A stretch of 64,000 bases of DNA from Arthrobacter pullicola (lineage in GTDB: Bacteria; Actinomycetota; Actinomycetes; Actinomycetales; Micrococcaceae), in assembly GCF_014836875.1 (NCBI RefSeq), contig NZ_JACSQC010000001.1, forward strand, positions 1 through 64,000, given 5' to 3'. Positions 17,834-45,595 of the stretch are shown in pieces. The notes under the pieces were generated by a model that worked only from the letters and a program-made list of their open reading frames with translations, was not told where the DNA came from and searched no databases. How positions within the stretch are numbered: position 1 is the first letter of the stretch; each line of letters starts with the position of its first letter. The position numbers were made by a program, and so were the translations under genes.

Positions 17834-19111
17834 TCAGCCGGCCGTCCCCGGCTGGTCCCGCGTACCGGCCGGGAGCGGTAGCCCCGCGGCGCCGGCAGCT
17901 TCCTGTGCCGCCGCTTCCCCGATGCCCCAGATGAACGGGGGCTCAGCGGCGTTGACTTCCCAGTCCCCCACGATCCGGGCCTTGTAAATGAACGGATTAT
18001 GGGTCGCCACCGTGCGCGCGTTCCGCCAGTGCCGGTCCAGGGCCTTGCTGGCGCTGGTGGAGGACGCGCCGAGGGCGTTGAAGATCGCTCCAGCCGCCTC
18101 CGGCACCAGCGTGCTCAGTACGGTCTGGGCCCGGGCAGATTCCAGCTCAGCGGCAATATTCGCCGCCTTCTCGACGTCGGCGCCCTGCTCCCGGGCCGCG
18201 AAGACCCGGTCCAGGCTGTGCGCCACGCTGAGTGCTGCGGCCCTGGCTACGTAGGCTTTTGCGCTGATCTCGCCGACCACCTGCAGGATCTGGGGGTCCT
18301 GCCGGACCAGAGGTGCGTTACCGTTGCCGAAAACCCGTTTGCGCTCCCGCACCTGGGTGCCGGCTTCGGTAACGGCCGCCTGCGCGATTCCCGCGAGGAC
18401 CACCAGCAGGATGTGCTGGTACAGCGCGGTCTGGTACGGGAACCGGTTTTCGAAGGCAAACACGTGGGCGGGGTCCACTGCAGCATTGGTGAAAACCGTG
18501 GTCCCGCTGCCGGTCAGCCGCTGGCCGAAACCGTCCCAGTCGTCATAGGTCTCGACGCCGGAGGTCCGGGTGGCGACGATCACCGAGACGTGGGAGCCGT
18601 CCGGCCGCTTGGCGGTGACGTCGATCCAATCGGCGAAGATGGTGCCCGTGGTGTAGAACTTCCGCCCGTCGAGCACCAGCCCGGCGTCCGTTTCGGCCAG
18701 GACCGTGGCCGTGCCGCCGGCGCCGGGTTCGGTCCAGGCGTTGCCGGCCAGCTCGCCGGCTGCGAAGCGCCGAAGCCAGCCGCTGCGGTCGTCACCCCGG
18801 CCGTGGTGGTAGAGGCTGTCCTCCACGAGTGCGATATGTCCGCGCAGGGCCTGTGGAATATGGCTGTCCGCCGTTGCCAGCTCGATCAGCAGATCGGTGA
18901 ATTCCGCCCAGCCCAGGCCGTCCCCGCCGAACTCAGCGGGGATGCGGGCGGCCCCGAAGCCGGCCTCCCGCAGCCAGTTGATCTGTTCGAACGGAAGTTC
19001 CCGGGCCAGCTCGCGGTCCAGCGCCCCGGCCGCGATGCGTTCGAAGACCGGCCGGTACTTGGCGGCGGCCCTGGCATGGGCCGTGGAGGTGTCGGTGAGA
19101 GTGTCAGTCAT
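17834..19111 (-). CDS. Acyl-CoA-dehydrogenase-like flavin monooxygenase, sulfur acquisition type
   Basis: 425 aa. It has the acyl-CoA dehydrogenase fold as used by DszC/SfnB-type monooxygenases: an N-terminal helical domain with LPFEQINWLREAGFGAARIPAEFGG, a middle domain with NAWTEPGAGG...LDGRKFYTTGTIFADWIDV, and a C-terminal helical domain with LDRHWRNARTVATHNP. Such enzymes use reduced flavin and O2 rather than acyl-CoA. AGGAG precedes ATG 19111, 60 bases after the upstream gene, so both are probably under the SAM-IV leader at 20486. No flavin reductase lies nearby. The actual organosulfur substrate is unknown. Confidence 0.78.
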   Translation of the reverse strand: MTDTLTDTSTAHARAAAKYRPVFERIAAGALDRELARELPFEQINWLREAGFGAARIPAEFGGDGLGWAEFTDLLIELATADSHIPQALRGHIALVEDSLYHHGRGDDRSGWLRRFAAGELAGNAWTEPGAGGTATVLAETDAGLVLDGRKFYTTGTIFADWIDVTAKRPDGSHVSVIVATRTSGVETYDDWDGFGQRLTGSGTTVFTNAAVDPAHVFAFENRFPYQTALYQHILLVVLAGIAQAAVTEAGTQVRERKRVFGNGNAPLVRQDPQILQVVGEISAKAYVARAAALSVAHSLDRVFAAREQGADVEKAANIAAELESARAQTVLSTLVPEAAGAIFNALGASSTSASKALDRHWRNARTVATHNPFIYKARIVGDWEVNAAEPPFIWGIGEAAAQEAAGAAGLPLPAGTRDQPGTAG

Positions 19112-19171
19112 AGTGGTGCTCCTGGTTTCGCCCGTCCGGGCAGGGTGGTGGTGCTGCGCCGCAGCCCGGGC

Positions 19172-20410
19172 TTAGGTGTAGAGCGAAATCGGCTGGACTT
19201 CACCGAGCAGGTAGTTGGCCCCGACCTCAACCTTTTTGTAGTCGACCGGATCATGCAGGCTGTGCGTGCGGATGTTGCGCCAGAAGAGGTCCAGGCCTAC
19301 CGCAGACTTCGCCGAGGATGATCCGGTCACCTCGAAGATACGGTTGGCCGTGTCCACGCCCACCTCACTGGAGACCACCTTGAGCCGGGCGATCTCAATG
19401 GCATGCTCCGCCCGCGCTTCGGCGGTCAGCTGGCCGCCGGCGGCAATCACGCCGTCGAACCGGCGGTTCGTCCGGTCTGCCAGAGCTTCCACGGCTGCGA
19501 TCCGGGAGTCCAGTTCACCGTAGATCCGTTGGGTCAGCGGGTCCTGGGCGTAGGTTTCGGCACTGGACAGGAACCAGGAGTTCCTGCGGCCCAGCGTAAT
19601 CTCGCGTCCACGCGCCAGCGCTCCCTGGGCAATGCCGAGGTAGAGGTTGCCGAAGGCCAGCTGGATGTACGGCGTAACCAGGGTGGAGAACGGTTCCTCC
19701 CCCACTTCCCCGATGATGTCTTCCGCGGTGATCCGCACACCGCTGTACTTCACCGAACCGCTGGCGGAAAGGCGCTGGCCCAGCGCGTCCCAGTTGCCGA
19801 GGTATTCGATGCCGCTACGGTCATGGTCCACGACGAGGGCCAGGAATTTCCCCTGGTTTTCGCCGGCGGAAATGACCGCGTTGACCAGGATGGCATTGCC
19901 TACGGACGCGCCGGTGGAAAAGTGCTTGATGCCCTCCAGCCGGAAGCCGCCGTCGTCGGGAACCAGTTCCAGGTTGGGGTCCACGGGGTTCACCGAATCA
20001 CCCCAGGACCAGCCGGCCTGGGCCGAGCGGCGGAACAGGCGTTCCTGCACCGATGCGCTGCCGTAGAAAACCACGGATCCGAGGTTGGCGTAGTGGTAGG
20101 CCAGGATCTGGGCGATCGACGCGTCAGTGCGCGCCAGGATGCGTACGGCGTGCAGCGCGCTTTCCCAGTGTCCGCCCCGGCCGCCCCACTCCGCGGGGAT
20201 GATCAGGTTGAGCAGCCCGGAACGCCGCAGCAGTTCCACCTCGGCATGCGGGTCGGCGTTCCGGCGGTCCCGTTCCAGGACGTCCGCGGCCAGTGCGGCG
20301 GCAACATCCTCAGCGGTCCTGCTCCAGTGATCCAGCTCTTCGGGGGAAGCATGCCCGTTCCAGGGCGAACGGGCGGCCTGCAGCTCTACTTCGTTGTCGA
20401 CGATGGTCAT
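19172..20410 (-). CDS. SfnB/DszC-like flavin-dependent monooxygenase
   Basis: 412 aa from ATG 20410, preferred over a TTG at 20458 because GAAGGA lies upstream and the product then begins MTIVDNEVEL. It is an acyl-CoA-dehydrogenase-fold protein of the sulfur-acquisition group: LRRSGLLNLIIPAEWGGRGGHWESA, SWGDSVNPVDPN, GIKHFSTGASVGNAI, ALGQRLSASGSVKYSGVRI and a C-terminal DLFWRNIRTHSLHDPVDYK. The last motif recurs almost unchanged in the gene at 24198-25412. It is directly downstream of a SAM-IV riboswitch on the same strand. It probably oxidises a sulfone, sulfoxide or sulfonate derivative with FMNH2 from an unlinked reductase. Confidence 0.82.
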   Translation of the reverse strand: MTIVDNEVELQAARSPWNGHASPEELDHWSRTAEDVAAALAADVLERDRRNADPHAEVELLRRSGLLNLIIPAEWGGRGGHWESALHAVRILARTDASIAQILAYHYANLGSVVFYGSASVQERLFRRSAQAGWSWGDSVNPVDPNLELVPDDGGFRLEGIKHFSTGASVGNAILVNAVISAGENQGKFLALVVDHDRSGIEYLGNWDALGQRLSASGSVKYSGVRITAEDIIGEVGEEPFSTLVTPYIQLAFGNLYLGIAQGALARGREITLGRRNSWFLSSAETYAQDPLTQRIYGELDSRIAAVEALADRTNRRFDGVIAAGGQLTAEARAEHAIEIARLKVVSSEVGVDTANRIFEVTGSSSAKSAVGLDLFWRNIRTHSLHDPVDYKKVEVGANYLLGEVQPISLYT

Positions 20411-20485: not shown

Positions 20486-20606
20486 GGGGGCCGTACTTGC
20501 CTGGCACGGTCTGTGCGCGGCCGGATCCTCATCTGGGGCACCCCGCTACGGGAGAGGGTTGCCGCCCAACCAGCCAGAGCTTGTCGTTGGGACTCTTGAT
20601 CTTGGA
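20486..20606 (-). ncRNA. SAM-IV riboswitch upstream of SfnB-like monooxygenases
   Basis: On the minus strand the order of elements matches SAM-IV: GATCAAGAGTCCCAACG, CTCTGGCTGGTTGGGCGGC, AACCCTC, CGGGGTGCCCCAGATGAGGATC closing P1, then a GCAC-AGACC-GUGC hairpin and GGCAAGTACGG, the pseudoknot strand. The element at 37080-37198 has the same elements with compensating differences. A CATACT -10 box (20616-20611) lies just upstream. High SAM would be expected to reduce expression of the two monooxygenases. Bases 20411-20485, between the aptamer and the gene, would hold the expression platform; I see no clear terminator there. Confidence 0.85.
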
Positions 20607-20771: not shown

Positions 20772-20822
20772 TTGCCGTCGAATGGACGTTTCCGGGTGAA
20801 TCCATAGGGAAGAATATTCATC

Positions 20823-22492: not shown

Positions 22493-23290
22493 ATGACGCA
22501 GGCCGCAGAGCGTGCTGCCGACTCCAAGTCATTTGAGCGGGCAGCGCGCATGGGCTACGTGGCCAGTGGCTTGCTGCACGCCCTGATTGGCCTCATTGCG
22601 CTGCAGATCGCGTTCGGTGACGGGGGCAGTGCCGACTCCTCCGGTGCGATGTCCGCGCTCGCTTCCCGGCCGGGTGGCATCTTCCTGATCTGGGCCTGTT
22701 TCCTTGGCTGCCTTGCGCTGGCGCTGTTCCAGGTCAGCCGCGCGTTCCTTGACTCGGCCGGCAGCCGGAAGGAAGTCTGGAAGAAACGGGCGACCGATGC
22801 CGGTTCAGCCGTTGTCTACGGCGCCATTGGCATCAGCTTCGGTGTTTTCGCGCTCGGTGGTTCCAGTGACAGCGGGCAGAACCAGGCCACCTGGACGGCC
22901 CGGCTTCTCAGCCAGCCCGCAGGCCAGATCCTGGTGGGCCTGATCGGTGCGGTGGTCGCCGGCATCGGGATTTACTTCGTCTACAAGGGCGTGATGCGGA
23001 CGTTCCGGAAGAACCTCGGACCGATCCCGAGCGGGCCCTGGCAGCGTGCAGTGACCATCACGGGGATCACGGGTTTCACCGCGAAGGGCCTCTCACTGCT
23101 CATTCTGGGCGGCCTGGTCATTGCTGCCGCCGCCACCGCGGACCCGCAGAAGTCCACCGGTTTGGACGGCGCCCTGCACGCCTTGAAGGAGGCGCCCCAG
23201 GGCTGGCTGGCGCTGGGCGCCGTCGGGGTGGGGCTGATTTGCTACGGCCTGTACCTGGGCATTATGCGGGCCCGCTTCGGCAAGCTTTAG
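22493..23290 (+). CDS. DUF1206 integral membrane protein
   Basis: 265 aa from ATG 22493; TTG 22457, preceded by GGAGG, is a real alternative that adds 12 aa. Three repeats of about 75 aa each carry two membrane helices: MGYVASGLLHALIGLIALQIAFG, DAGSAVVYGAIGISFGVFALGG and ITGITGFTAKGLSLLILGGLVIAAAATA open the repeats, and each is followed by a second helix. The GxVAKG/TAKG turns are typical of DUF1206. The function is unknown. Its TAG stop overlaps the stop of the convergent metQ (TTAG, 23287-23290). Confidence 0.8.
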   Translation: MTQAAERAADSKSFERAARMGYVASGLLHALIGLIALQIAFGDGGSADSSGAMSALASRPGGIFLIWACFLGCLALALFQVSRAFLDSAGSRKEVWKKRATDAGSAVVYGAIGISFGVFALGGSSDSGQNQATWTARLLSQPAGQILVGLIGAVVAGIGIYFVYKGVMRTFRKNLGPIPSGPWQRAVTITGITGFTAKGLSLLILGGLVIAAAATADPQKSTGLDGALHALKEAPQGWLALGAVGVGLICYGLYLGIMRARFGKL

Positions 23291-24162
23291 GCCTGCCACC
23301 AGGAGTCGAGTTCCTCAAGCGGGTCAGCGTCCCACGGTGTGGGCAGCACACCGTCCATGTAGCCGGCAAACCACTCCTTGACCTCGGGTGACTGGTAGGC
23401 CTCCTTGAGTACCTTCGCCTTTTCGGTTTCTGCGAATTCCGCTGTTCCGGCGACGACGCACCGGAACGGAATCTGGTCCGCTTCCTTCTCGAACGCCAGG
23501 GCGTCATCAGGTGAGAGTCCAATTTCGGCGGCCAGGCGCACGAACAGGAACCCGGCGTCGACGTCGGGCAGCGTCTTGGACAGCGACTGCTGGTCCACTT
23601 CCACAAAGGTCAGGTTCTTCGGGTTGGCGGTGATGGTTTCCTGCGACGTATGGATCACCCCCACACCGTCCTTCAGTTCCAGCAGCCCGGCGTCGCGCAG
23701 CAGCAGGAGGGCGCGGCCGTTGTTCGAGGGGTCCACCGGCAAGGCGATCCGGGCGCCGTCCGGAAGTTCCTGCAGGCTGGAGTAGCGCTCGGACCAGATG
23801 CCGCCGGGTGAGCCGTAGACGTAGAACAGCGGCTGAACTTCCAGCTTCTGGTCCACGTTGAACTGCTGCAGGTAGGCGCCGTGCTGGAAGTAGTTGGCGT
23901 CGAATTCGCCGTTGGAGACGGCCAGGTTCGGCTGCACGATGTCGGTGACGTACGTGGGTTCCAGCGTCCAGCCCTTGGCCTTGAGCAGTTCGACGGCGAT
24001 CTTCGTGGGCTCCTGATAGGGGGCGGACTCGGTGACGATGATCTTGATGGTCTTGTCATCCGAGGCGGACGCCCCGCCGGTGAGGCCGCAGCCGGTGGCG
24101 GCGGTGAGCGAGGCGGCGCCTGCGCCCGCCAGGGCCAGCTTGAGAAAGTTCCTGCGTTCCAT
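23287..24162 (-). CDS. metQ: MetQ/NlpA family substrate-binding lipoprotein
   Basis: 291 aa solute-binding protein of a methionine-type ABC importer. The N-terminus combines a twin-arginine-like motif (ERRNFLK) with a lipoprotein cleavage site before Cys25, so it may be exported folded and then acylated. The mature chain has IIVTESAPYQEP, GEFDANYFQHGAYLQQFN and DPSNNGRALLLL, which match the NlpA family. It is the last gene of the SAM-I operon metN-metI-LLM-SfnB-metQ; separation of metQ from metNI by two monooxygenases suggests it binds the organosulfur substrate of those enzymes rather than methionine itself, which is inference. Confidence 0.82.
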   Translation of the reverse strand: MERRNFLKLALAGAGAASLTAATGCGLTGGASASDDKTIKIIVTESAPYQEPTKIAVELLKAKGWTLEPTYVTDIVQPNLAVSNGEFDANYFQHGAYLQQFNVDQKLEVQPLFYVYGSPGGIWSERYSSLQELPDGARIALPVDPSNNGRALLLLRDAGLLELKDGVGVIHTSQETITANPKNLTFVEVDQQSLSKTLPDVDAGFLFVRLAAEIGLSPDDALAFEKEADQIPFRCVVAGTAEFAETEKAKVLKEAYQSPEVKEWFAGYMDGVLPTPWDADPLEELDSWWQA

Positions 24163-24197: not shown

Positions 24198-25412
24198 TTA
24201 CCGGTAGGCGGAGGGAACGGGTTCGGTGCCGTTGAGGAAGTAGCGGCCGAGTTCGTTGTATTTGTAGGCCACCGGATCATGGAGGGTGTGGGTGCGGACG
24301 TCCCGCCAGTAGCGGTCAAAGCCGTATTTGCTGCCCGCAGCGCGTGCCCCGGTGACGTCGAAAACCCGTGCGGTGACGTCCAGGGACACTTCGTGGGCGG
24401 TAACCTTCGCAGCGGCAATCTGTTCGGCCACTCCGGCCCGGTCCGCCGCGGTCAGCTCCTCCCCGGCATCCCAGGCCCACTGCAGCGCCGTGGCGGCATG
24501 GTCGACGACGGCGGCCAGCGTCTGCAGCGCGGCCGTGAAGGAGCCGTAGTGGTTCTGGATAAACGGATCCTCCGCAGCGGACTCCACCTCGGCGTGGAAC
24601 CAGGGCCGCGCACTGCTGCGCGTGTAGTCCCGGGCTGCGAGGACGGCGCCTTCGGCTGCGGCCAGGTAGGCATGCGCGAAGAGCAGCTGGAAGGCGGGGG
24701 TGGTGAGGACCTGGTGTGGACGGCGTTCGCCGTCGTGCGCTCCCAGATTCGTAATCACGTCCCCATCCGGCACAAAAACGTCGCGGAATTCGATGGTGTT
24801 CGTTGCGGTAAGCCGGGAGCCAAGGACGTCCCAGTCGTCGTGGCGGACCACTCCCTCGGATGCGGTGTCGATGATCAGCGCCAGCCGGTCTCCGCCGTCG
24901 ACAATTGCCCGGCCGTAAATCCTGTCGGCGACCCGGCTGCCGGTGGAGAACGGCTTTTTACCGGTGACCCGGTAGCCGCCGTCGACGCGGCGGGCGGTGG
25001 CCTGCGGTCCCTGCGGGGTGCCGGTGGAGGACCAGAGCCATTGCTGGGCCAGGCATTCGTCTGCGAGTGCCTGCCCGCGTACCTCGTCCAGGTCGATGTA
25101 CGGGAAGGACTGGAAAATGTAGTGGTAGCCGAGCAGCTGGCCGATGGAGTTGTCCGCCCGGGCGATCCGCTGCACAATCTCGAACGCCGTGGGCCAGTCA
25201 ATTCCTGCGCCGCCGAAGCGGGTGGGAATGGTCAGCGGCAGCAGGCCGGACCGGCGCAGGATTTCCACCTCGGTGAAGGGCGGTTTGTTCGCCAGGTCCC
25301 GTTCCAGGGCGTCGGCACCGAGGATCGCGGCAACCTCGTCGGCCAGTGCGAACCAGTGTTCCTGGCCGGCACTGGTGCTGCGGCCGTAGCGGTGAAGCAG
25401 GCTGGCGGTCAT
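24198..25412 (-). CDS. SfnB-like acyl-CoA-dehydrogenase-fold monooxygenase
   Basis: 404 aa. N-terminal EILRRSGLLPLTIPTRFGGAG, central QWLWSSTGTPQGP and GKKPFSTGSRVADRI, WDVLGSRLTATNTIEF, and C-terminal FDRYWRDVRTHTLHDPVAYK identify the same sulfur-acquisition group as the gene at 19172. It probably hydroxylates a sulfur compound with reduced flavin. ATG 25412 overlaps the stop of the FMN monooxygenase by four bases (ATGA); coupling of an LLM enzyme to an SfnB/DszC-type enzyme suggests two steps of one pathway. Confidence 0.82.
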   Translation of the reverse strand: MTASLLHRYGRSTSAGQEHWFALADEVAAILGADALERDLANKPPFTEVEILRRSGLLPLTIPTRFGGAGIDWPTAFEIVQRIARADNSIGQLLGYHYIFQSFPYIDLDEVRGQALADECLAQQWLWSSTGTPQGPQATARRVDGGYRVTGKKPFSTGSRVADRIYGRAIVDGGDRLALIIDTASEGVVRHDDWDVLGSRLTATNTIEFRDVFVPDGDVITNLGAHDGERRPHQVLTTPAFQLLFAHAYLAAAEGAVLAARDYTRSSARPWFHAEVESAAEDPFIQNHYGSFTAALQTLAAVVDHAATALQWAWDAGEELTAADRAGVAEQIAAAKVTAHEVSLDVTARVFDVTGARAAGSKYGFDRYWRDVRTHTLHDPVAYKYNELGRYFLNGTEPVPSAYR

Positions 25413-26842
25413 CGGGTTTCTCCTGCGGTTGCAAGGCCGGCTTCGGGGGCAGCGGCTGTGAAGGCTCCGCGGAAGCGGGCGGCCGGGTGGCGTTCGTTCA
25501 GCAGCGGCCCGTTGCCGAAGAGCTTTTCGCGCAGGGTTCCCGGCGTGTACTCGTTCTGGGCCAGCCCGCGGCGGCGCAGTTCCGGCAGCACCCCGTCAAT
25601 GAAATCGGTGTAGGAGCCGGGCAGCACAGCATTGATGATGTTGATGCCGTCCACGCCGGCGTCCTGCCAGCGCTCGAGTTCATCGGCGATCTGCTCCGGG
25701 GTGCCGGTGATCTGCTGCGCTTCGGTCCGGTACCGGGCGACGTCAGCCAGGGTCGGGTTGCCTCCGGGGGTGGAGTCGATGATGGCCTGCAGCACGCCGC
25801 GGCCGCCTTCGGTCTGCACGTCGCCGAGCGGGGTTTTAAGATCGAGCCCGCCGAGGTCGATTCCCAGGCCGCCGCCGATGTGCGCGATCACGGCGTCCAG
25901 GTCCAGGTATTCGTCCAGTTCGGCCTTTTTGCGCCGGGCTTCGGCTTCGGTGCCGCCGACCACAAAGGACAGTCCGGTGAAGACCTTGACATCGTCCGGC
26001 AACCGCCCGGCCTCGACGGCCCGGGACCGGACCCCGGCGGCCACCTTGGCGGCATGGGCGGGGTTCGGCGCGAAGATGAACGTGGCTTCGGCATTGGCCG
26101 CCGCGAACTGCTGGCCGCGTCCGGAGCTGCCGGCCTGGAAGAGCACGGGGGTGCGCTGTGCCGACGGTGCGCTCAGGTGCGGCCCGTCAATGGAGTAGCG
26201 CTCGCCGCGGTGATGGATCTTGTGGACCTTCTCCGGGTCGGCGTGCACACCGCTGGCCTTGTCCTGGATCAGCGCGCCCTCGTCCCAGGAGCCTTCCCAG
26301 AGTTTGTACACAGCTTCGACGTATTCATCCGCCCAGTCATACCGGCGGTCATGTTCCGTGAGCCCGGCGCCGTCGAAATTGCGGTGCGCGTTCTCCAGGA
26401 CCGAGGTGACGATGTTCCAGCCGGCGCGGCCGCCGGAGAGGTGGTCCAGCGTGGACATCTGCCGGGCGAACTGGAAGGGGTGGCTTTGCACCACCGACGA
26501 TGTCGCGGCCAGTCCGATGTCCTTGGTGGCTCCGGCCAGCGCCGCGAGCAGCAGCACGGGATCGTTGGCCGGCACCTGCAGGCCGCGGCGCACATGGGAC
26601 GCCCAGCCGCCGTCGTGGTTTCCATACAGGCCCACGACGTCGGCGAAAAAGAGGGCGTCGAACTTCGCCGCTTCGAGCTGCCGGGCCAGGTCCGTCCAGA
26701 AGCCGAGCTCGTTGAAGCGGTGCTGCTCCGCCTCGGGGTGGCGCCACTGGCCGCCGCGGATGTGGCTGGTGGTATTCATCAGGAACGCGTTGAGCAGCAG
26801 GCGCGGCCTGGGCCCGGAAAAACGGGTGCTGGGGATAGGCAT
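25409..26842 (-). CDS. NtaA/SnaA/DszA family FMN-dependent monooxygenase
   Basis: 477 aa, bacterial luciferase-like TIM barrel. LLLNAFLMNTTSHIRGGQWR, WTDLARQLEAAKFDALFFADV, HPFQFARQMSTLDHLSGGRAGWNIVTS, HDRRYDWADEYVEAVYKLWEGSW and TPVLFQAGSSGRGQ are hallmarks of this family, which includes DszA (dibenzothiophene sulfone) and NtaA (nitrilotriacetate). It needs FMNH2 from a separate reductase. It lies between metI and the SfnB-like gene inside the SAM-I operon. A role in cleaving C-S bonds is inferred from that context. Confidence 0.85.
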   Translation of the reverse strand: MPIPSTRFSGPRPRLLLNAFLMNTTSHIRGGQWRHPEAEQHRFNELGFWTDLARQLEAAKFDALFFADVVGLYGNHDGGWASHVRRGLQVPANDPVLLLAALAGATKDIGLAATSSVVQSHPFQFARQMSTLDHLSGGRAGWNIVTSVLENAHRNFDGAGLTEHDRRYDWADEYVEAVYKLWEGSWDEGALIQDKASGVHADPEKVHKIHHRGERYSIDGPHLSAPSAQRTPVLFQAGSSGRGQQFAAANAEATFIFAPNPAHAAKVAAGVRSRAVEAGRLPDDVKVFTGLSFVVGGTEAEARRKKAELDEYLDLDAVIAHIGGGLGIDLGGLDLKTPLGDVQTEGGRGVLQAIIDSTPGGNPTLADVARYRTEAQQITGTPEQIADELERWQDAGVDGINIINAVLPGSYTDFIDGVLPELRRRGLAQNEYTPGTLREKLFGNGPLLNERHPAARFRGAFTAAAPEAGLATAGETR

Positions 26843-28413: not shown

Positions 28414-28438
28414 GGACCAAAAGAAAGCGGGTGCTTCT

Positions 28439-28534
28439 CCATCGGTCCTGGCGGTAGCACCCCTCTCCTCCGCAGGATTACGGAAGGGGTTGCTGCGGCG
28501 TCATGGAGCCAGGTCTCTCAGCCGCTCTGGATGG
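28439..28534 (-). ncRNA. SAM-I (S-box) riboswitch of the metN operon
   Basis: Minus strand: CCATCCAGAGCGGCTGAGAG, ACCTGGCTCCATGACGCCGC, AGCAACCCC, then GGGGTGCTACCGCCAGGACC and GATGG. CCATC and GATGG close P1; the kink-turn (GCUGAGAGACC), the P3 strands CAACCC/GGGGUGC and the conserved GCCAGGACCGAU are the S-box core. It is 90-100 nt long. SAM binding should lower expression of the downstream metN-metI-LLM-SfnB-metQ operon. Confidence 0.9.
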
Positions 28535-28602
28535 TTACTGGTCCATGTAAGCCGGGACAGCCCCAGCCCGGCAAGAACATGTCGGTGTATGGCCCGGCAC
28601 GT

Positions 28603-37079: not shown

Positions 37080-37198
37080 AGCGCCGTACTTGCCACTGGC
37101 GAAAGCGCCTGCGACCGGATCGTCATCTGGGGCACCCCGCCACGGGAGAGGGTTGCCGCCCAACCAGCCAGAGCTTTGCGTTGGGACTCATGATCCTG
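37080..37198 (-). ncRNA. SAM-IV riboswitch of the DszA-like monooxygenase
   Basis: Minus strand: GGATCATGAGTCCCAACGC, GCTCTGGCTGGTTGGGCGGC, AACCCTCTCCCGTGGCGGGG, TGCCCCAGATGACGATCCGG, then hairpin GGCG-CUUU-CGCC and GGCAAGTACGG. GGATC and GATCC close P1. It is nearly the same as the copy at 20486-20606 in the core, while the apical hairpin after P1 differs in sequence but keeps its pairing. CATACT (37211-37206) is a candidate -10. The aptamer ends only 34 bases before the ATG, so control of translation is possible. Confidence 0.87.
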
Positions 37199-38223: not shown

Positions 38224-38309
38224 GAGCCGGGTTCGCCGCGAATCCGGCGCGGCGAATTGTTACGCCGGGACTTGCCCGCGGGCAGCCCGAGGGCGTTTAG
38301 TTATGGCTT

Positions 38310-38472
38310 GACCATCCCGAGCGGCTGAGAGACCTGGATCAGTGAAGCCGCAGCAACCCTGGTCGGCGCGTTTCCTCCTTGAGGCGCGGCGATAACGAGG
38401 TGGACGTCGCAGGAGGCCGGTAAGCCGGCCCAGGACGTTTTCCGTAGGGTGCTACTGCCAGGACCGATGGAG
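38310..38472 (+). ncRNA. SAM-I riboswitch with long P3, upstream of ssuB
   Basis: Plus strand: CCATCCCGAGCGGCTGAGAG (38312-38331), ACCTGGATCAGTGAAGCCGC, AGCAACCC, then after about 90 bases GGGTGCTACTGCCAGGACC and GATGG (38466-38470). CCATC/GATGG close P1. The core matches the element at 28439, but the P3 arm is expanded from about 35 to about 90 bases and contains GGCCGGTAAGCCGGCC. The 3' strand of P1 (GATGGAG) contains the GGAG that serves ssuB, so SAM binding would hide the ribosome-binding site directly. Confidence 0.9.
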
Positions 38473-38478
38473 TGTTCA

Positions 38479-39306
38479 ATGACTGCAGTACTTTCCTCCG
38501 GGTCCCATGCCGTGTCCGCTGCCGCGGGCCCCGCACCAGACACCGCCCTGTCCGTGACCTTCGACGGCGTGGGCCGCAGCTTCGGCTCCGGCCCGGACGC
38601 CCACGTGGTGCTCCGGGACATTCACTTCGAGGTGCGCCCCGGTGAAGTCCTCGCCATCCTTGGCTCCAGCGGCTGCGGCAAATCCACCCTGCTGCGGGCC
38701 ACCGCGGGGCTCGACGCCGCTTCGACCGGCAGCGTGCGGATCGACGGAACAGCCGTCCGCGGCATCGATGACCGCTGTGCCGTGGCCTTCCAGGAACCCC
38801 GCCTGCTGCCCTGGCAGACCCTGCAGGCCAATGTTGCGATCGGCCTCCCCAAGGGCACCAGCGCCAGCGAGGGCAAGGCGAAGGTTGCCGAACTGCTGAA
38901 GCTGGTGGAGCTGGACAGCTTCGCCAAGCACCAGCCCCGCGCGGTATCCGGCGGTATGGCGCAGCGCGCCTCCCTGGCACGGGCCCTGGCCCGCAGGCCC
39001 GGGGTGCTGCTGCTGGATGAACCGTTCGGTGCTCTCGACGCGCTGACCCGCCTGAAGATGCAGGATCTGCTGCTGGACGTGCACCGCGCCGCCCCGGCCA
39101 CCGTCCTGCTGGTCACCCACGACGTCGACGAGGCGCTGCAGCTCGCAGACCGCATCATCGTCCTGGGCCGCGAACCGGGCAAACCCGGCGCCACCATCAC
39201 CCAGACCATCACCGTCCCGGGCGCACGTCCCCGGGACCGTGCCTCGGCCGAACTGGCGCGAATGCGCGGCGAGCTCCTGGCGAGCCTCGGCGTCGAGCGC
39301 CACTAG
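38479..39306 (+). CDS. ssuB: Sulfonate/nitrate-type ABC transporter ATPase
   Basis: 275 aa from ATG 38479; ATG 38467 lies inside the riboswitch P1 helix and is less likely. Walker A GSSGCGKST, Q-loop FQEPRLLPWQTL (the EPRLLPW form is typical of SsuB/TauB/NrtD), signature VSGGMAQRASLARAL, Walker B VLLLDEPFGALD, switch VTHDVDEAL. It powers uptake of sulfonates with SsuA and SsuC encoded downstream. It is the first gene after the SAM-I leader. Confidence 0.88.
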   Translation: MTAVLSSGSHAVSAAAGPAPDTALSVTFDGVGRSFGSGPDAHVVLRDIHFEVRPGEVLAILGSSGCGKSTLLRATAGLDAASTGSVRIDGTAVRGIDDRCAVAFQEPRLLPWQTLQANVAIGLPKGTSASEGKAKVAELLKLVELDSFAKHQPRAVSGGMAQRASLARALARRPGVLLLDEPFGALDALTRLKMQDLLLDVHRAAPATVLLVTHDVDEALQLADRIIVLGREPGKPGATITQTITVPGARPRDRASAELARMRGELLASLGVERH

Positions 39307-39413: not shown

Positions 39414-40460
39414 ATGAACAGCCGTTCCCGCTTTACCCGCCGCCCCCTCGCGGTAATCGCCGCCACCGCCGCCGCGGTCTCCCTGGCCCTGACCGGCTGC
39501 GTCGCCGGTGAGGATTCCTCCGCCGGTGCCGCCAGTGAAGCTGCCGACGGCGGCACGCTGAACATCGACTTCGCCACCTACAACCCCCTGAGCCTGGTCA
39601 TCAAGGACCAGGGCTGGCTGGAAGCCACCCTCGCCGAGCAGGGCGTGGACGTGAACTGGGTACAGTCCGCCGGCTCCAACAAGGCGAATGAGGCACTGCG
39701 GGCCGGGGCGATCGACGTCGGCTCCACCGCAGGTTCTGCCGCCCTGCTGGCCCGCGCGAACGGCTCGGAGATCACGACCATCAGCATCTACTCCCAGCCG
39801 GAGTGGGCTGCCCTGGTGGTCGGCCCGGACTCGGACATCACCTCGGTGGCGGACCTGGCCGGCAAGTCGGTCGCTGCGACCAAGGGCACCGACCCGTACT
39901 TCTTCCTGGTCCAGGCCCTGGAGGAGGCCGGCCTGAGCACCTCGGACGTAACGGTGGAGAACCTGCAGCACGCCGACGGGCGCACCGCACTGGAAAACGG
40001 TGCCGTTGACGCCTGGGCCGGGCTGGATCCGATCATGGCAGGCGCCGAGCAGGCCGGTGCGGAGCTGCTGTACCGCAACCTGGACTTCAACACCTACGGC
40101 TTCCTGAATGCCACCGAATCCTTCCTCAAGGAAAAGCCCGAGCTGGCACAGGTGGTTGTGAACGCGTATGAGAAGGCCCGCGCCTGGGCCGCCGAAAACC
40201 CGGAGGAAACCGCGCAGATCCTGGCCGACGTCGCCGGCCTGGACCTTGAGGTAGCCAAGACCGTGATCCTGGAGCGCAGCAACCTGGACGTTGACGCCGC
40301 CCCGGGTGACGCGCAGCGTGCGGTCCTGGAAAAGATCGGCCCCACGTTTGTGGAGACCGGTGACGTCGCGGAGCAGTCCACCATTGACGACGCCATCGCC
40401 AACCTGCTGGACGATTCCTTCGTGAAGAAGGCCGATCCGGAAGCCATCAAGGAATCCTAG
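39414..40460 (+). CDS. ssuA: Sulfonate-type ABC transporter substrate-binding lipoprotein
   Basis: 348 aa. Lipoprotein signal ending LALTGC with the modified Cys at residue 29. The mature protein has LNIDFATYNPLSLVIKDQGWLE, WVQSAGSNKANEALRAGAIDVGSTAGSAALLARANGS and VAATKGTDPYFFLVQALEEAGLS, the SsuA/TauA pattern. It captures a sulfonate outside the membrane for SsuBC. It follows ssuB after 107 bases that contain a GC-rich stretch but no clear terminator. The ssuC start overlaps its stop (TAGTG). Confidence 0.88.
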   Translation: MNSRSRFTRRPLAVIAATAAAVSLALTGCVAGEDSSAGAASEAADGGTLNIDFATYNPLSLVIKDQGWLEATLAEQGVDVNWVQSAGSNKANEALRAGAIDVGSTAGSAALLARANGSEITTISIYSQPEWAALVVGPDSDITSVADLAGKSVAATKGTDPYFFLVQALEEAGLSTSDVTVENLQHADGRTALENGAVDAWAGLDPIMAGAEQAGAELLYRNLDFNTYGFLNATESFLKEKPELAQVVVNAYEKARAWAAENPEETAQILADVAGLDLEVAKTVILERSNLDVDAAPGDAQRAVLEKIGPTFVETGDVAEQSTIDDAIANLLDDSFVKKADPEAIKES

Positions 40461-41332
40461 TGAGCAATTCGTACCTGACCGGAAGCTCGGCAGTACCCGG
40501 CGGCTTGCAGGGCCCCCCGGCAGTGCTCCCGTCCCAACCCGCTGCCCCGGAGCGGATCTCCGGGGCCTCCGGACCGCTCTCCCGGGGCTGGGTCCGAGTG
40601 CTCCTGGGCCTGGTGGTCCCGGTGCTGGTCCTTGCGCTCTGGCAGCTGGTTTCGGTGCTGGGGGTCTTCAGCGCCGTGCAGCTGCCCTCGCCGGGCGCTG
40701 TCCTGTCCTCCGCCGTCGACCTGTTTGACCGCGGGGAACTGGGCACACATATCGCCATCTCCACCCAGCGCGTGCTGACCGGTTTTGCCGCCGGCGCCGC
40801 GCTGGGCCTGGTGCTCGGCGCCGTGCTGGGCCTTTCCCGCCTGGCCGATGTCCTGCTCGGCCCGCTGCTCGGCGCGCTCCGTGCCGTACCGTCGCTGGCG
40901 CTGGTGCCGCTGCTGATCCTCTGGATGGGAATCGGGGAGGACTCGAAGGTCACGCTGATCACCATCGGTGCGTTCTTCCCGGTCTTCACCACCGTGTCCC
41001 TGGCGCTGCGGCACGTGGACAAGAACCTCGTCGAAGCCGCGCGGGCGTTTGGCCTGAACGGCGTCAAGCTGCTCACCACTGTGCAGCTGCCCGCCGTCGT
41101 CCCTGCCGTGTTCTCCGGGCTGCGGCTGGCACTGGCGCAGTCCTGGCTGTTCCTGGTGGCGGCCGAGCTGATCGCCTCCTCCATGGGGCTCGGCTTCCTG
41201 CTGACGGACTCGCAGAACAACGGCCGCACCGACCGCATGTTCCTGGCAATCGTGCTGCTGGCAGTTATTGGTAAGACAACCGATGCCCTGCTGGGCCTCG
41301 CAGAAAAGTGGGCAGTGAAGAAGTGGGCGTAA
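40460..41332 (+). CDS. ssuC: Sulfonate-type ABC transporter permease
   Basis: 290 aa from GTG 40460, overlapping the ssuA stop by one base. Six helices follow an N-terminal cytoplasmic region of about 45 aa. The EAA loop reads EAARAFGLNGVKLLTTVQLPAVVPAVFSGLRLAL, typical of SsuC/TauC, and SWLFLVAAELIASSMGLGFLL completes the signature. It forms the channel of the sulfonate importer with SsuB. Confidence 0.9.
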   Translation: MSNSYLTGSSAVPGGLQGPPAVLPSQPAAPERISGASGPLSRGWVRVLLGLVVPVLVLALWQLVSVLGVFSAVQLPSPGAVLSSAVDLFDRGELGTHIAISTQRVLTGFAAGAALGLVLGAVLGLSRLADVLLGPLLGALRAVPSLALVPLLILWMGIGEDSKVTLITIGAFFPVFTTVSLALRHVDKNLVEAARAFGLNGVKLLTTVQLPAVVPAVFSGLRLALAQSWLFLVAAELIASSMGLGFLLTDSQNNGRTDRMFLAIVLLAVIGKTTDALLGLAEKWAVKKWA

Positions 41333-43302
41333 GAACAGCACCCCAGCCGGCCGCAGAGCCGGAGTTCGCCACTGAAGCGGAACGCATCGCGTTCTGGGAG
41401 GAAGCCGCGCGGCGGCTGCAGTGGGAGGAACCGTGGCACACCGCGCACCGGTTCACCCCGCCGCAGCGCCTCAGCGGGCCGGAGGTTCCCGAAGCCGACG
41501 CAGAATACAGCGTTCCGGAGATCGAGTGGTTCGCTGGCGGCAAGCTCAACGTCGCCGTGAACTGCGTGGACCGCCACGTCGCCGCCGGCCACGGAGACAA
41601 GGTTGCCCTGCACTTCGAGGGTGAGCCCGGCGACCGGCGCACCCTGACCTACGCCGACCTGCAGCAAGAGGTCTCCCGCGCCGCCAACGCTCTGCTGGCC
41701 CTCGGCATCGAACAGGGCGACCGGGTGGTCATCTATCTGCCGGTCATCGCCGAAACCGTCATCATCACCCTGGCCTGCGCCCGCATCGGGGCCGTGCACT
41801 CGCTGGTGTTCGGCGGGTTCTCCGCGGAGGCGCTGAAGTTCCGGGTGGAGGACACCCGCACCAAGCTGCTGGTCACCACGGACGGGCAGTACCGGCGCGG
41901 GGCAGCCGTCCCGGTCAAGGACAACGCGGATAAAGCCGTGTCCGGCGAGAACTCGATCGAGCACGTCCTGGTGGTCAAGCGGACCGGCTGCGACATCGCC
42001 TGGACCGAGGGCCGGGATATCTGGTGGCACGAGACCGTTGACACCGCCTCCGACGTGCACGAACCGGAAGCGTTCGACGCCGAAACCCCGCTGTTCATCA
42101 TGTACACCTCCGGGACCACGGGGAAGCCCAAGGGCCTGGTGCACACCATGGGCGGCTACCTCACGCAGGCCTCGTGGAGCTACGAGTTCCTCTTCGCCAA
42201 CCCGGACGAAGCCGCCCGCGCTGACGACGTCCACTGGTGCACCGCGGACCTGGCCTGGGTCACCGCGCACACCTACGAAATCTACGGTCCACTCTCCAAC
42301 GGCGTCACCGAGGTGATTTTCGAGGGCACTCCGAACACCCCGCACCCCGGCCGGCACTTCGAAATCATCGAACGCTACAAGGTCACCAGCTATTACACCG
42401 CCCCCACCCTGGTCCGCTCCCTGATGGGCTGGTTCCCCGACGGCGTCCCGGACACCTGGGACCTGTCCTCCATCCGGCTGCTCGGCACCGTGGGCGAGGC
42501 CGTGAATCCGGAGGCCTGGCGCTGGCTGCGGGAAAACGTCGGCCGCGGCGAAGTCCCGGTGATCGATACCTGGTGGCAGTCCGAAACCGGCGCCACCATC
42601 CTCTCCCCGCGCCAGACCGACACCGTGTTCAAGCCCGGCTGCGCCTCCCGTGCCCTGCCCGGCGTCTCCACCCGGATCGTCGACGAGGACGGCAATGACG
42701 TCCCGGCCAATACCCAGGGCTTCATCGTGGTGGACCGGACCGGCCCGTCCATGGCCCGCACCTGCTGGGGCGATCCGCAGCGCTACCTGTCCTCCTACTG
42801 GCGGCAGTACGCAAAACAGGGCTGGTTCCTGGCCGGCGACGGCGCCCGGTATGACGACGACGGCGATACCTGGATCCTGGGCCGGGTGGACGACGTCCTG
42901 AACGTCTCCGGGCACCGGCTCTCCACGATCGAGATCGAGTCGGCCCTGGTGTCCCACCCCTGGGTCGTGGAGGCAGGGGTCTGCCCGGTCGCCGATCCGA
43001 AGACCGGGCACGCGATCGCCGCGTTCGTGGTGCTGACCGAGACTGCATCGAAGGATGCGGGCGAGGTGACGAAGGAACTGCGGAACCACGTCGCCAAGGA
43101 AATCGGGCCGATCGCCAAGCCCGCCGCCGTCGTCGTGGTTCCCGATGTCCCCAAGACGCGCTCCGGCAAGATCATGCGCCGGCTGCTGACCCAGCTGTTC
43201 GAGGGCACCACGCTCGGCGACACCACCAGCCTGCAGAACGAACCGTGCATTCCGGCGATTCACGCCGCCTGCCAAGTCCGCAGGACTGGAAGTGGCGTCT
43301 AA
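41308..43302 (+). CDS. Acetyl-CoA synthetase-like AMP-forming ligase
   Basis: 664 aa. It overlaps ssuC by 25 bases if GTG 41308 is used, 10 bases from GTG 41323. ATP-binding YTSGTTGKPKGLVHTMGGY, DTWWQSETG (the Trp that limits the pocket to acetate in Acs), and TRSGKIMRRLL with the regulatory Lys. It makes acetyl-CoA (possibly propionyl-CoA) from the acid. Coupling to ssuABC is unusual; acetate could be a product of sulfonate breakdown, or acetyl-CoA could supply the O-acetylhomoserine used by the nearby MetY. Both are inference. Its stop shares four bases with the convergent 86-aa gene. Confidence 0.85.
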   Translation: MGSEEVGVRTAPQPAAEPEFATEAERIAFWEEAARRLQWEEPWHTAHRFTPPQRLSGPEVPEADAEYSVPEIEWFAGGKLNVAVNCVDRHVAAGHGDKVALHFEGEPGDRRTLTYADLQQEVSRAANALLALGIEQGDRVVIYLPVIAETVIITLACARIGAVHSLVFGGFSAEALKFRVEDTRTKLLVTTDGQYRRGAAVPVKDNADKAVSGENSIEHVLVVKRTGCDIAWTEGRDIWWHETVDTASDVHEPEAFDAETPLFIMYTSGTTGKPKGLVHTMGGYLTQASWSYEFLFANPDEAARADDVHWCTADLAWVTAHTYEIYGPLSNGVTEVIFEGTPNTPHPGRHFEIIERYKVTSYYTAPTLVRSLMGWFPDGVPDTWDLSSIRLLGTVGEAVNPEAWRWLRENVGRGEVPVIDTWWQSETGATILSPRQTDTVFKPGCASRALPGVSTRIVDEDGNDVPANTQGFIVVDRTGPSMARTCWGDPQRYLSSYWRQYAKQGWFLAGDGARYDDDGDTWILGRVDDVLNVSGHRLSTIEIESALVSHPWVVEAGVCPVADPKTGHAIAAFVVLTETASKDAGEVTKELRNHVAKEIGPIAKPAAVVVVPDVPKTRSGKIMRRLLTQLFEGTTLGDTTSLQNEPCIPAIHAACQVRRTGSGV

Positions 43303-43559
43303 TGCACCCGCGCAAGGGTCACCCGGTCCAGCTCCACGGCGCCGCCCATGGCACGGTGCAGCCGGATGAACTCGACCGGGGAGACCTCCAGGATCGATGT
43401 GTCCTTTTTCTCCGGCAGCAGGTCGGGATGCCCGTTCTCCATCAGCTCGATGAACAGCTGCTGCGCGTCCGTCCGGTCCATGGGATCCGTGGGGGTGATC
43501 TTGTGGTTGGCGGAGGCCAGTTTGTAACCGGTTTCGACGACGATCACGTACTGTTCCAT
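43299..43559 (-). CDS. Hypothetical small protein
   Basis: 86 aa from ATG 43559, with GGGAGCGGG upstream on the minus strand; the frame opens at 43589. The sequence MEQYVIVVETGYKLASANHKI... ends VSPVEFIRLHRAMGGAVELDRVTLARVH. It has no membrane segment and no recognised domain. It lies head-on to the acetyl-CoA synthetase, sharing CTAA at the stops, and separates that gene from metY, so metY needs its own promoter. Confidence 0.55.
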   Translation of the reverse strand: MEQYVIVVETGYKLASANHKITPTDPMDRTDAQQLFIELMENGHPDLLPEKKDTSILEVSPVEFIRLHRAMGGAVELDRVTLARVH

Positions 43560-43713
43560 GCCCGCTCCCGGGTTGTGGGGTTCCGGCACCGGCCGGAGTA
43601 GACCCCGCGCTCAGCGCAACTGTCCTCAACATTGTTGGTTTCCACCGCCCAATAAAGCAACCATTGCCTTACCGCTTCGCAGCGGTCCCCCTAAGGAAGG
43701 AGCACTCAGTCCC

Positions 43714-45099
43714 ATGAGTGATCGCCAGTTCGGATTCCGTACCCGCGCCCTGCACGCGGGCGGCACACCCGATGCCATCCACGGTGCGCGCGCCGTCCCC
43801 ATCTACCAGACCACGTCCTTTGTCTTCAAGGACACCGACGACGCCGCCAACCTCTTCTCGCTGCAGAAGTACGGGAACATCTACTCCCGCATCGGCAACC
43901 CCACGGTGGCTGCGTTCGAGGAACGCATCGCCTCCCTGGAGGGCGGCATCGGTGCGGTGGCGACGGCGTCGGGCATGTCCGCCGAATTCGTCACCTTCGC
44001 GGCGCTCTGCCAGGCCGGGGACCATATTGTGGCCGCGTCCCAGCTCTACGGCGGCACGGTCACCCAGCTGGACGTCACACTGCGCCGCTTCGGCATCGAC
44101 ACGACCTTTGTTCCCGGCACCGATCCCGCCGACTACGCGGCGGCCATCCAGGAAAACACCAAGGCCGTGTACGCCGAGGTAGTCGCCAACCCCAGCGGCG
44201 AGGTCGCCGATATTGAGGGCCTGGCCAAGGTGGCGCACGACGCCGGTGTGCCGCTGATCCTCGACGCCACCCTGAGCACGCCCTACCTGGTCCAGCCGTT
44301 CAAGCACGGCGCGGACATTGTCATTCACTCCGCCACCAAGTTCATCGGCGGCCACGGCACCACCCTGGGCGGCGTCGTCGTCGAGGCCGGCACGTTCAAC
44401 TGGGGCAACGGCAAGTTCCCGGCCATGACCGAGCCGGTGCCGTCCTACGGCAACATCTCCTGGTGGGGGAACTTCGGGGAGTACGGCTTCCTGACCAAGC
44501 TGCGTTCCGAGCAGCTGCGCGACATTGGACCCACGCTCTCCGCGCAGTCCGCCTTCCAGCTCCTGCAGGGCGTGGAAACCCTGGCCCAGCGGGTGGATGA
44601 GCACCTGCGCAACGCCCAGGCCGTGGCCGAGTGGCTCGAAGCTGATGACCGCGTGGCCTGGGTCTCCTACGCCGGCCTGGAATCACACCCGCACCACGAG
44701 CGGGCGAAGCACTACCTGCCCAAGGGCGCAGGCTCCGTCTTCAGCTTCGGGGTGAAGGGCGGCCGCGCTGCCGGGCAGGTGTTCATCGAATCCCTGCAGC
44801 TCGCCTCACACCTGGCAAACATCGGAGATTCCCGCACCCTGGTGATCCACCCGGGTTCGACCACCCATCAGCAGCTCTCCCCCGAGCAGATGGCCGCAGC
44901 CGGTGTTCCGGAGGACCTGGTGCGGATTTCCGTGGGCCTGGAGGACCTGGAGGACATCCTCTGGGACCTGGACCAGGGCCTCACCGCTGCCGCTGCCGCA
45001 GCGTCCGGCGCTGCCACTGCAGTCCCCGCCGCTGAAGCCGCGTCCTGCACCGTGCCCGCCCCGGCCGCCGTCGAAAACCAGGAGTCCGCCAATGTCTGA
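43714..45099 (+). CDS. metY: O-acetylhomoserine sulfhydrylase
   Basis: 461 aa from ATG 43714 (AAGGAAGGAG upstream; the frame opens at 43558). PLP enzyme of the Cys/Met metabolism family that condenses O-acetylhomoserine with sulfide to homocysteine. FGFRTRALHAGGTPDAIHGARAVPIYQTTSFVF, YSRIGNPTVAAFEERIASLEGG, and the PLP Lys in HSATKFIGGHGTTLGG are diagnostic. A 40-aa Ala-rich tail after DILWDLDQGL is extra. The leader holds a small ACCGCT-TCGC-AGCGGT hairpin (43671-43686) but I find no SAM riboswitch. The next gene begins 8 bases before its stop. Confidence 0.93.
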   Translation: MSDRQFGFRTRALHAGGTPDAIHGARAVPIYQTTSFVFKDTDDAANLFSLQKYGNIYSRIGNPTVAAFEERIASLEGGIGAVATASGMSAEFVTFAALCQAGDHIVAASQLYGGTVTQLDVTLRRFGIDTTFVPGTDPADYAAAIQENTKAVYAEVVANPSGEVADIEGLAKVAHDAGVPLILDATLSTPYLVQPFKHGADIVIHSATKFIGGHGTTLGGVVVEAGTFNWGNGKFPAMTEPVPSYGNISWWGNFGEYGFLTKLRSEQLRDIGPTLSAQSAFQLLQGVETLAQRVDEHLRNAQAVAEWLEADDRVAWVSYAGLESHPHHERAKHYLPKGAGSVFSFGVKGGRAAGQVFIESLQLASHLANIGDSRTLVIHPGSTTHQQLSPEQMAAAGVPEDLVRISVGLEDLEDILWDLDQGLTAAAAAASGAATAVPAAEAASCTVPAPAAVENQESANV

Positions 45100-45595
45100 G
45101 AACCGCACTGACACCGGGAGCTGGGTAGGCCCCAGCGCCCCTGAACGCCTCGCCCTGCTCCGCTCGGCCAAGTCGATCGCCATTGTGGGTGCCTCGGACA
45201 AACCGTCCCGGGCCTCCTACTTCGTGGCGACGTACCTGCTCTCTTCCTCGCCGTACAAGGTGTATTTCGTGAACCCGGTGGCCAAGGAAATCCTGGGCCA
45301 GCCGGTCTACGCCTCGCTGGCGGACCTGCCGGAAACCCCGGACATCGTGGACGTTTTCCGCCGGCATGATGACCTGCCGACCGTCCTGGAAGAGGCGAAG
45401 GCCGTGGGCGCGAAGACGCTCTGGCTGCAGCTGGGTTCCTGGCATGAGGAAGTGGCCCGGGATGCCGAAGCCGCCGGAATGAACGTGGTCATGGACCGCT
45501 GCGTGAAGATTGAGCACGCGCGGTTCCACGGCGGATTGAACCTGGCCGGCTTCAACACCGGGGTGATCTCCTCGAAGCGCCAGCTCACGGCGTAG
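45092..45595 (+). CDS. CoA-binding domain protein coupled to metY
   Basis: 167 aa from ATG 45092, with GGAG 7 bases upstream, overlapping the end of metY by 8 bases. Rossmann-type CoA-binding fold: KSIAIVGASDKPSRASYFVATYLL, VYFVNPVAKEILGQPVYASLADLP, DIVDVFRRHDDLPTVLEEA, GAKTLWLQLGSWHEEVARDAEAAGMNVVMDRCVKIEH. Pairing with metY suggests a role in homocysteine or thiol metabolism, still undefined. It is a paralogue of the protein at 29298-29714. Confidence 0.87.
   Translation: MSENRTDTGSWVGPSAPERLALLRSAKSIAIVGASDKPSRASYFVATYLLSSSPYKVYFVNPVAKEILGQPVYASLADLPETPDIVDVFRRHDDLPTVLEEAKAVGAKTLWLQLGSWHEEVARDAEAAGMNVVMDRCVKIEHARFHGGLNLAGFNTGVISSKRQLTA

Follow-up and report, generated by a model that had tools for sequence, protein, structure and literature searches.

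Four SAM aptamers among organosulfur genes

By which signal does Arthrobacter pullicola control its use of organic sulfur? The question is raised by a stretch of 64,000 nucleotides (contig NZ_JACSQC010000001.1, positions 1 to 64,000; hereafter the window), in which genes for flavin-dependent oxygenases and importers lie between positions 17834 and 45595. The initial annotation had placed there four leaders sensing S-adenosylmethionine (SAM), of the two classes SAM-I and SAM-IV, and had proposed that they alone govern organosulfur use, without an adjacent CysB- or SfnR-like regulator. This interpretation is partly supported by our analysis. The region is part of a larger genome-wide gene set, and it is rather probable that it forms the core of this set and that its SAM-binding leaders would, at high SAM, switch off the oxidative scavenging of organosulfur compounds.

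Comparison of the whole window with Rfam yielded four matches over cut-off: two SAM-IV aptamers, one SAM-I aptamer and a small signal recognition particle (SRP) RNA. The SAM-IV aptamers at 37081-37195 and 20488-20601 (both minus strand) reached 96.4 and 91.5 bits with RF00634 (cut-off 38). The SAM-I aptamer at 28436-28537 (minus strand), which lacks P4 and lies about 105 nt ahead of metN, reached 57.1 bits with RF00162 (cut-off 44.4). A permissive search of positions 17000-46500 turned up a SAM-I-type (S-box) element at 38309-38473 (plus strand; E 1.3e-5). All four predicted leaders were located at most five bases from their expected positions; in the covariance check with the two Rfam models three of them passed the cut-off, whereas the element at 38309 fell short of it (38.9 versus 44.4 bits). 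The genome holds 11 SAM aptamer matches (7 SAM-IV, 4 SAM-I). With uniform random placement on 3.62 Mb, four of the 11 came to lie inside 18 kb in 30 of 200,000 simulations; the clustering of the four aptamers is unlikely to be due to chance.

For the Pfam and NCBIfam searches, open reading frames (ORFs) of the window were picked by hand, with small ORFs covered in part. The SAM-IV aptamer at 20488-20601 stands upstream of two genes for DszC/SfnB-like oxygenases on the minus strand, one at 19172-20410 (identified by family profiles; start analysis makes ATG 20410 likely) and one, SfnB/DszC-like, at 17834-19111 (TIGR04022, 235 bits, below the cut-off of 430.9). The SAM-I aptamer at 28436-28537 heads minus-strand genes for a MetN-type ATP-binding cassette (ABC) ATPase (27522-28331; TIGR02314, 303.3 bits, below the cut-off of 499.7), a MetI-type permease (26864-27574; PRK10782, 197.1 bits, below the cut-off of 212), an NtaA/DmoA-family monooxygenase, the second copy, termed NtaA_a (25409-26842; TIGR03860, 508.1 bits, cut-off 279.7), a DszC/SfnB/MsuC-like flavin oxygenase (24198-25412; NF043015, 302.1 bits, and TIGR04022, 250.2 bits, both below the equivalog cut-offs) and a MetQ/NlpA-type lipoprotein (23287-24162; PF03180, 186.6 bits). 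The other NtaA/DmoA-family gene (35649-37046, minus strand; TIGR03860, 570.9 bits, cut-off 279.7), coding for a monooxygenase dependent on reduced flavin mononucleotide (FMNH2), is headed by the SAM-IV aptamer at 37081-37195. Divergent from this unit, the element at 38309-38473 heads ssuB-ssuA-ssuC-type genes and acsA on the plus strand. Their products are an SsuB-type ABC ATPase (38479-39306; family profiles, and start spacing with ATG 38479 six nt past GATGGAG), an SsuA-type substrate-binding protein (39414-40460; TIGR01728, 218.8 bits, cut-off 163.5), an SsuC-type permease (40460-41332; best family PRK11365, 185.6 bits, below the cut-off of 347; PF00528) and an acetyl-CoA synthetase, the AcsA paralog (41308-43302; TIGR02188, 789.8 bits, equivalog cut-off 724.95). 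The gene content read in the initial annotation was thereby confirmed, with MetNIQ- and SsuABC-type importers, two NtaA/DmoA-type and three DszC/SfnB-like oxygenases. The DszC/SfnB genes are labelled "-like" because their scores lie far below those of the equivalogs (TIGR04022, 235-250 of 430.9 bits; NF043015, 107-302 of 850 bits).

Elsewhere in the same genome, aptamers lie ahead of metY-metX (locus L012, SAM-IV), metQ-metN-metI (L013) and a flavin reductase gene (L014, SAM-IV). In locus L017, with two SAM-I aptamers, these lie ahead of MetY-like and cystathionine gamma-synthase genes plus a gene for a 412-aa product without an NCBIfam match (E 1e-30). The reductase gene is on a different contig from the cluster; the best PDB match of its product is flavin reductase 3pft (163.6 bits), and no homolog was detected in the window by tblastn. 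Oxygenases of the NtaA and DszC types depend on a partner reductase for FMNH2. The reductase therefore matters to the regulon, and it is the likely FMNH2 source for the oxygenases of the cluster. Another contig carries a second Acs with 55% identity, and the sulfur-linked acetyl-CoA synthetase AcsA is a predicted member of the regulon.

Pairing of genes and aptamers in relatives

The pairing was tested by searches that start from the genes; a separate locus map, which used loci chosen for their aptamers, is biased. Distance counts were made with part of the SAM-IV match list (the strongest, the weakest and some other rows were omitted) and are therefore lower bounds; 55 loci were re-scanned independently for aptamers. 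A search with the DmoA-like protein gave 62 matches at E<=1e-100 in 59 relatives. An aptamer lies within 300 nt of at least 24 of them (19 SAM-IV, 5 SAM-I), and at least 20 more have a same-strand aptamer no more than 7 kb away. Among the 30 re-scanned DmoA-like loci, 23 carry an aptamer directly upstream (18 SAM-IV, 5 SAM-I). For the flavin reductase, SAM-IV stands upstream of 21 of 25 homologs, including every one at 62% identity or more. The survey of related genomes thus provides good support for the initial proposal that genes of organosulfur use are organised as a regulon with SAM aptamers.

Genes of the set also occur together. All 23 genomes that bear the reductase have a DmoA-like match. 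Within the genus (29 genomes, kinship uncorrected), reductase and DmoA-like gene (at least 82% identity) are both present in 17 and both absent from 12; one of the latter, G012, retains an NtaA copy of 44%. In the genus genome G013 the DmoA-like match is partial (C1:27201-28244) and the reductase match has an internal TGA (C1:1714923-1715333), where a sequencing error is possible. Of 33 AcsA matches with at least 62% identity, three have SAM-I within 300 nt, 27 have it within 7 kb upstream and three have none; in L019, L022, L029 and L030, acsA has a SAM-I of its own.

The class of the leader is not fixed. The same monooxygenase gene is led by SAM-IV in some species and by SAM-I in others: the DmoA-like gene has SAM-IV directly before it in 16 members of the genus as well as in G030 and G033. 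SAM-I takes this place in one genus member, G009, and in G029, G031, G032 and G035. G032 has a second copy (53%, L031) with SAM-IV 1.4 kb upstream. If the proposed regulon is right, two SAM aptamer classes could be compared naturally at one gene.

A wider view was obtained from 79 named homolog loci, taken from the best 80 of 586 relatives. Among these best 80, SAM-IV directly precedes the homolog in two Arthrobacter loci. SAM-I was found, not always before the homolog, in Arthrobacter sp. MYb213 (4), Nesterenkonia haasae (3), Micrococcus (1) and three Nocardia (1 each). In the stretches scanned, the homologs of Microbacterium, Curtobacterium, Frigoribacterium and similar genera, about 72-77% identical, have no aptamer. 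In the genomes sampled, the regulon is mainly Micrococcaceae-like.

The fourth element is a SAM-I variant

Is the element at 38309-38473, which scored below the Rfam cut-off, a genuine aptamer? Relative to RF00162 it has an insert of about 78 nt in P3, and P4 is missing. A lineage model (R1), built on 32 other SAM-I copies with a short P3 and leaving this element out, assigned it 83.0 bits (E 6.8e-19). Of the 29 genus genomes, 28 have a SAM-I match 161-166 nt long, the exception under stricter filters being G007. In 21 aligned copies P1 and the core are nearly invariant, and the P3 insert forms three helices with 95.5% of cells paired; when the helices are slid out of register, pairing falls to 36-46%. 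Both sides of a pair changed in 59 cells versus 18.2 in shuffles, a test that favours the structure because this was derived from the same alignment. A candidate pseudoknot of 5 bp would join the P3a loop to the P3b/P3c junction (alignment columns 64-68 with 104-108); it is only suggestive, because these columns are shared with helices that also covary.

On the strength of the lineage-model score, the occurrence in 28 of 29 genomes and the covarying insert, we take the element as a real SAM-I-type variant with an expanded, structured P3; the same three results rule out a chance match. A decayed SAM-I relic would account for the score below cut-off, the long insert and the fact that the leader folded alone is as stable as its shuffles (z -0.65). 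Since a nearly invariant P1 and core, covarying P3 arms and presence in almost the whole genus speak against decay, this explanation is highly improbable.

A predicted mode of switching

The four SAM-I alignments of the genome show 2 nt in place of the 18 consensus positions of the P4 hairpin. The linker from GGTGC to CGATGG measures 11-13 nt in 65 of 71 SAM-I copies and 18 nt in three Nocardia copies; two values of 26 are artefacts of the pattern, and one copy was not matched by it. CGATGG, the 3' strand of P1, is invariant in all 32 SAM-I copies of alignment A1. In 49 of the 71 copies, GATGGAR has the start codon of an ORF of 80 codons or more within the next 24 nt; two of these starts (L051 and L057, TTG) are probably wrong. 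The leader of ssuB reads GATGGAG-TGTTCA-ATG: the P1 strand GATGG overlaps the Shine-Dalgarno (SD) sequence GGAG (38469-38472), whose GG is paired in P1. In some copies (e.g. L017:8191) a purine-rich SD sequence lies just beyond P1. As judged from these alignments, most SAM-I copies examined are without P4 and have their putative SD sequence in or beside P1, from which we infer that P1 would directly occlude the ribosome in most of them. When P1 was enforced in a calculation not including pseudoknots, the unpaired probabilities of the two SD guanines fell from 0.24 and 0.40 to 0.001 and 0.01, and those of the following A and G went from 0.29 and 0.40 to 0.28 and 0.29; as support for occlusion, this calculation is weak evidence and only suggestive. 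The SAM-I copy before metN has a leader of about 105 nt with strong alternative hairpins (z -3.79) and probably works by strand exchange.

SAM-IV is characterised by a second pseudoknot, which pairs the P3 loop with the 3' tail. Candidate pairings for it, read by eye, are CCGUA/UACGG at 20488 and CCGUG/UACGG at 37081, with two mismatches in the copy before the flavin reductase. A plausible start lies 33-83 nt beyond the aptamer in 41 of 45 SAM-IV leaders (simple SD rule). Neither a terminator nor a clear expression platform was seen by eye, and because no terminator was evident, these leaders perhaps act translationally. Two divergent SAM-IV-like elements of the genome, L015:8572-8697 (minus strand) and L016:2765-2904 (plus strand), score 64 and 49 bits, have a changed core (ACCAACCCC...GGGTGGTTCGG) and lie upstream of a 41-aa ORF and an uncharacterised protein, respectively. 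Under stricter filters, SAM-IV matches of 64-69 bits, matched by score alone, turned up in other genomes of the genus, at least 16 in number. Both elements may belong to a variant class that plays a different role.

metY and protein regulators in the interval

MetY, the O-acetylhomoserine sulfhydrylase, is encoded at 43714-45099 (plus strand, 461 aa, ATG 43714; 596.6 bits with TIGR01326 for the longer reading frame, cut-off 495.1). In the initial annotation it was the end of the riboswitch units. This part has to be corrected: a small conserved ORF on the minus strand (43299-43559, 86 aa; tblastn across loci) separates acsA from metY, which rules out metY as the terminal gene of the SAM-I operon here, and no SAM-I-like element was found before metY (best score 6.8 bits, chance level). 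By tblastn, the small ORF lies ahead of metY in 18 of 23 loci, window included, with metY at 70% identity or more. It is lacking in L020, L022 and L030, whose metY genes each carry a SAM-I of their own, in L036, which has metY behind an ssuBAC block led by SAM-I, and in L037, the closest relative. A palindrome, CAACATTGTTG, at 43627-43637 upstream of metY occurs in four of the 23 loci compared and looks like a protein-binding site.

The claim that no CysB- or SfnR-like regulator is adjacent holds for these two families. The Sigma54_activat domain of SfnR-type proteins gave three matches in the genome (26.4-34.6 bits) and none in the window. A LysR-type gene does lie within the interval (30661-31554, minus strand), divergent from metallo-hydrolase, MFS and SDR genes. 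Its best match is CynR; it reaches 99.6 of 402 bits with PRK12684 (CysB family) and 89.2 of 436 bits with CysB. With the LysR product far under the CysB cut-off and no sigma-54 activator domain in the window, a CysB or SfnR homolog in the cluster was rejected. The location of the LysR gene and its similarity to the CysB family would also suit a scheme in which it is the true controller and the aptamers fine-tune. This scheme is very unlikely, given the better match to CynR and the divergent neighbours; moreover, a search of relatives' stretches (tblastn, E 1e-20) found the gene in L037 and L053, but not in L043, L051, L057 and L058, which retain the sulfur blocks.

A possible route from organosulfur compounds to methionine

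How might the set work as a whole? At low SAM the leaders would open, and the two NtaA/DmoA-type and three DszC/SfnB-like oxygenases, the MetNIQ- and SsuABC-type importers and the acetyl-CoA synthetase would be made; the unlinked, SAM-IV-led reductase would provide FMNH2. SAM would stabilise P1, which in most SAM-I copies overlaps or abuts the SD sequence and would hide it. Breakdown products would reach methionine via MetY/MetX, possibly partly as methanethiol, and AcsA would recapture the acetate released by MetY.

Sulfhydrylation of O-acetylhomoserine liberates acetate, and its release by MetY would explain an acetyl-CoA synthetase adjoining metY under SAM control. In an alignment with solved Acs structures, AcsA retains the motifs WVT, VGE and WWQ, which we take to be the acetate pocket; in view of these motifs, a role as ligase of a larger acid was dropped. 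The nearest PDB entry to the product of 35649-37046 is the dimethyl-sulfide monooxygenase 6ak1 (585 bits), by which it appears to be kin of DmoA with putative activity on dimethyl sulfide. The PDB matches of the product of 24198-25412 include DszC and methanesulfinate monooxygenase. In corynebacteria, methanethiol is described as a methionine precursor in the MetY reaction (PMC7279501, accessible part). No SsuD over cut-off was found in the genome; TIGR03565 at E<=1e-10 gave three weak matches, two of which are the NtaA/DmoA genes of the window. The third is a luciferase-family monooxygenase (C14:145137-145766) about 10 kb from the nearer SAM-I of L017.

The methanethiol-MetY link, the acetate recycling and the absence of SsuD over cut-off favour a putative methionine-directed route. 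Spelled out in full, the proposal is possible but doubtful: in Micrococcaceae a SAM-riboswitch regulon, instead of protein sensors, would run a methionine-first route in which DmoA-type oxygenases act on dimethyl sulfide or other thioethers to free methanethiol, which MetY attaches to O-acetylhomoserine, with a dedicated AcsA to recycle the acetate and an unlinked reductase responding to the same signal; SAM-I would be a stripped, P4-less direct-occlusion form, once with an added three-way P3 domain, and SAM-I and SAM-IV would interchange at the same gene. The methanethiol step has a serious rival that falls somewhat short of an even chance and is compatible with the regulon. As in Pseudomonas and Acinetobacter, dimethyl sulfide or sulfones could be converted stepwise to sulfite for cysteine synthesis, SAM leaders tying their use to methionine demand. 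Genes of the DszC/MsuC-like and SsuABC types are reminiscent of that pathway, and in A. baylyi one flavin reductase is reported to serve several two-component oxygenases (PMC13352529, accessible part), but the SsuD-type monooxygenase is missing from the genome at cut-off (the search was aimed at SsuD; SfnG was not searched separately).

The monooxygenases might instead be enzymes of catabolism or detoxification whose substrates are alkane-like or xenobiotic, with SAM control only via neighbouring methionine genes. NtaA_a is nearest to 6lr1, a hexachlorobenzene oxidative dehalogenase (499 bits), ahead of 6ak1 (414 bits), and both NtaA/DmoA copies match the alkane monooxygenase 3b9n. The aptamers, however, lie directly before monooxygenases and the unlinked reductase and not before met genes alone, and this explanation is unlikely.

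Besides the ordinary stability of the 38309 leader and the slight weight of the P1 calculation, several observations count against a SAM-controlled, methionine-directed regulon. NtaA_a is closer to the dehalogenase than to DmoA, and import of the SsuABC type is a poor match for the methanethiol step. Although metY adjoins acsA, it is outside the SAM-I operon, with a separate upstream region, because the small ORF intervenes and no aptamer precedes it; this and the LysR gene weigh on the claim of SAM-only control. In the lists used, 18 of the 62 DmoA-like matches have no aptamer, and in the 7-kb group of 20 some sit 5-7 kb off, perhaps in another operon. This flavin reductase is absent from 7 of the 30 genomes in which a DmoA-like match was obtained. 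Finally, a SAM aptamer of any kind is present in only 8 of the 79 named homolog loci (fetched flanks), so these enzymes do not need SAM-aptamer control.

Relation to known systems

In Pseudomonas, organosulfur genes are under SfnR/CysB control. The Bacillus S-box (SAM-I) regulon resembles the present set in that its leaders precede met genes as well as a MetNIQ-type importer; they have transcription terminators and a P4 hairpin, unlike the SAM-I copies described here, and to our knowledge it does not include a set of monooxygenases and flavin reductase. A literature search covering few subscription journals and no regulon databases found no description of such oxygenases, or of a flavin reductase, with a SAM riboswitch upstream. 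Because of this partial coverage, the evidence for novelty is weak. The form of the regulon, initially considered new, was not found described, but there is a precedent for placing sulfur use in general under SAM riboswitches.

The nearest one is the SAM-V/SAM-II response of Candidatus Pelagibacter ubique (PMC5069961). According to the accessible part of that paper, two SAM-leader classes control metY and methionine-directed organosulfur genes, many of them in one region, and SAM-V occludes the ribosome site, like the mode proposed here for SAM-I. The aptamer classes and genes are different, flavin oxygenases, importers and a flavin reductase are not named in that part, and the host is a marine alphaproteobacterium. 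In Mycobacterium avium, SAM-IV precedes the gene for O-acetylhomoserine sulfhydrylase (metY), as in L012, but the accessible part of the report has a single SAM-IV leader and does not mention organosulfur oxygenases (PMC3774663). The assimilation of dimethyl sulfide by Acinetobacter baylyi likewise employs several two-component flavin oxygenases and one reductase for sulfur acquisition, whereas the main text of PMC13352529 nowhere uses the term riboswitch. Among direct-occlusion riboswitches, with the ribosome-binding site in or beside the aptamer as proposed here, the accessible part of PMC10907184 lists SAM-II/V, SAM-III, SAM-SAH and preQ1; SAM-I is not listed there.

If the proposal is correct, RNA sensors of the end product can, throughout a common soil lineage, run a task usually ascribed to protein regulators, the use of organic sulfur. 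It would also provide a compact form of SAM-I for structural work. This control of organosulfur chemistry would be unusual and directly testable, and the functions predicted for the regulon flavin reductase and the sulfur-linked acetyl-CoA synthetase could be tested by knock-out.

Further features

Two proteins with a CoA-binding domain (PF13380) are encoded near the cluster genes, one at 29298-29858 (minus strand) near the metN block and one at 44903-45595 (plus strand) overlapping the end of metY. At L006:1763-2033 (minus strand), a match to the cspA thermoregulator below threshold (31.4 versus 78 bits) probably marks a cold-shock gene.

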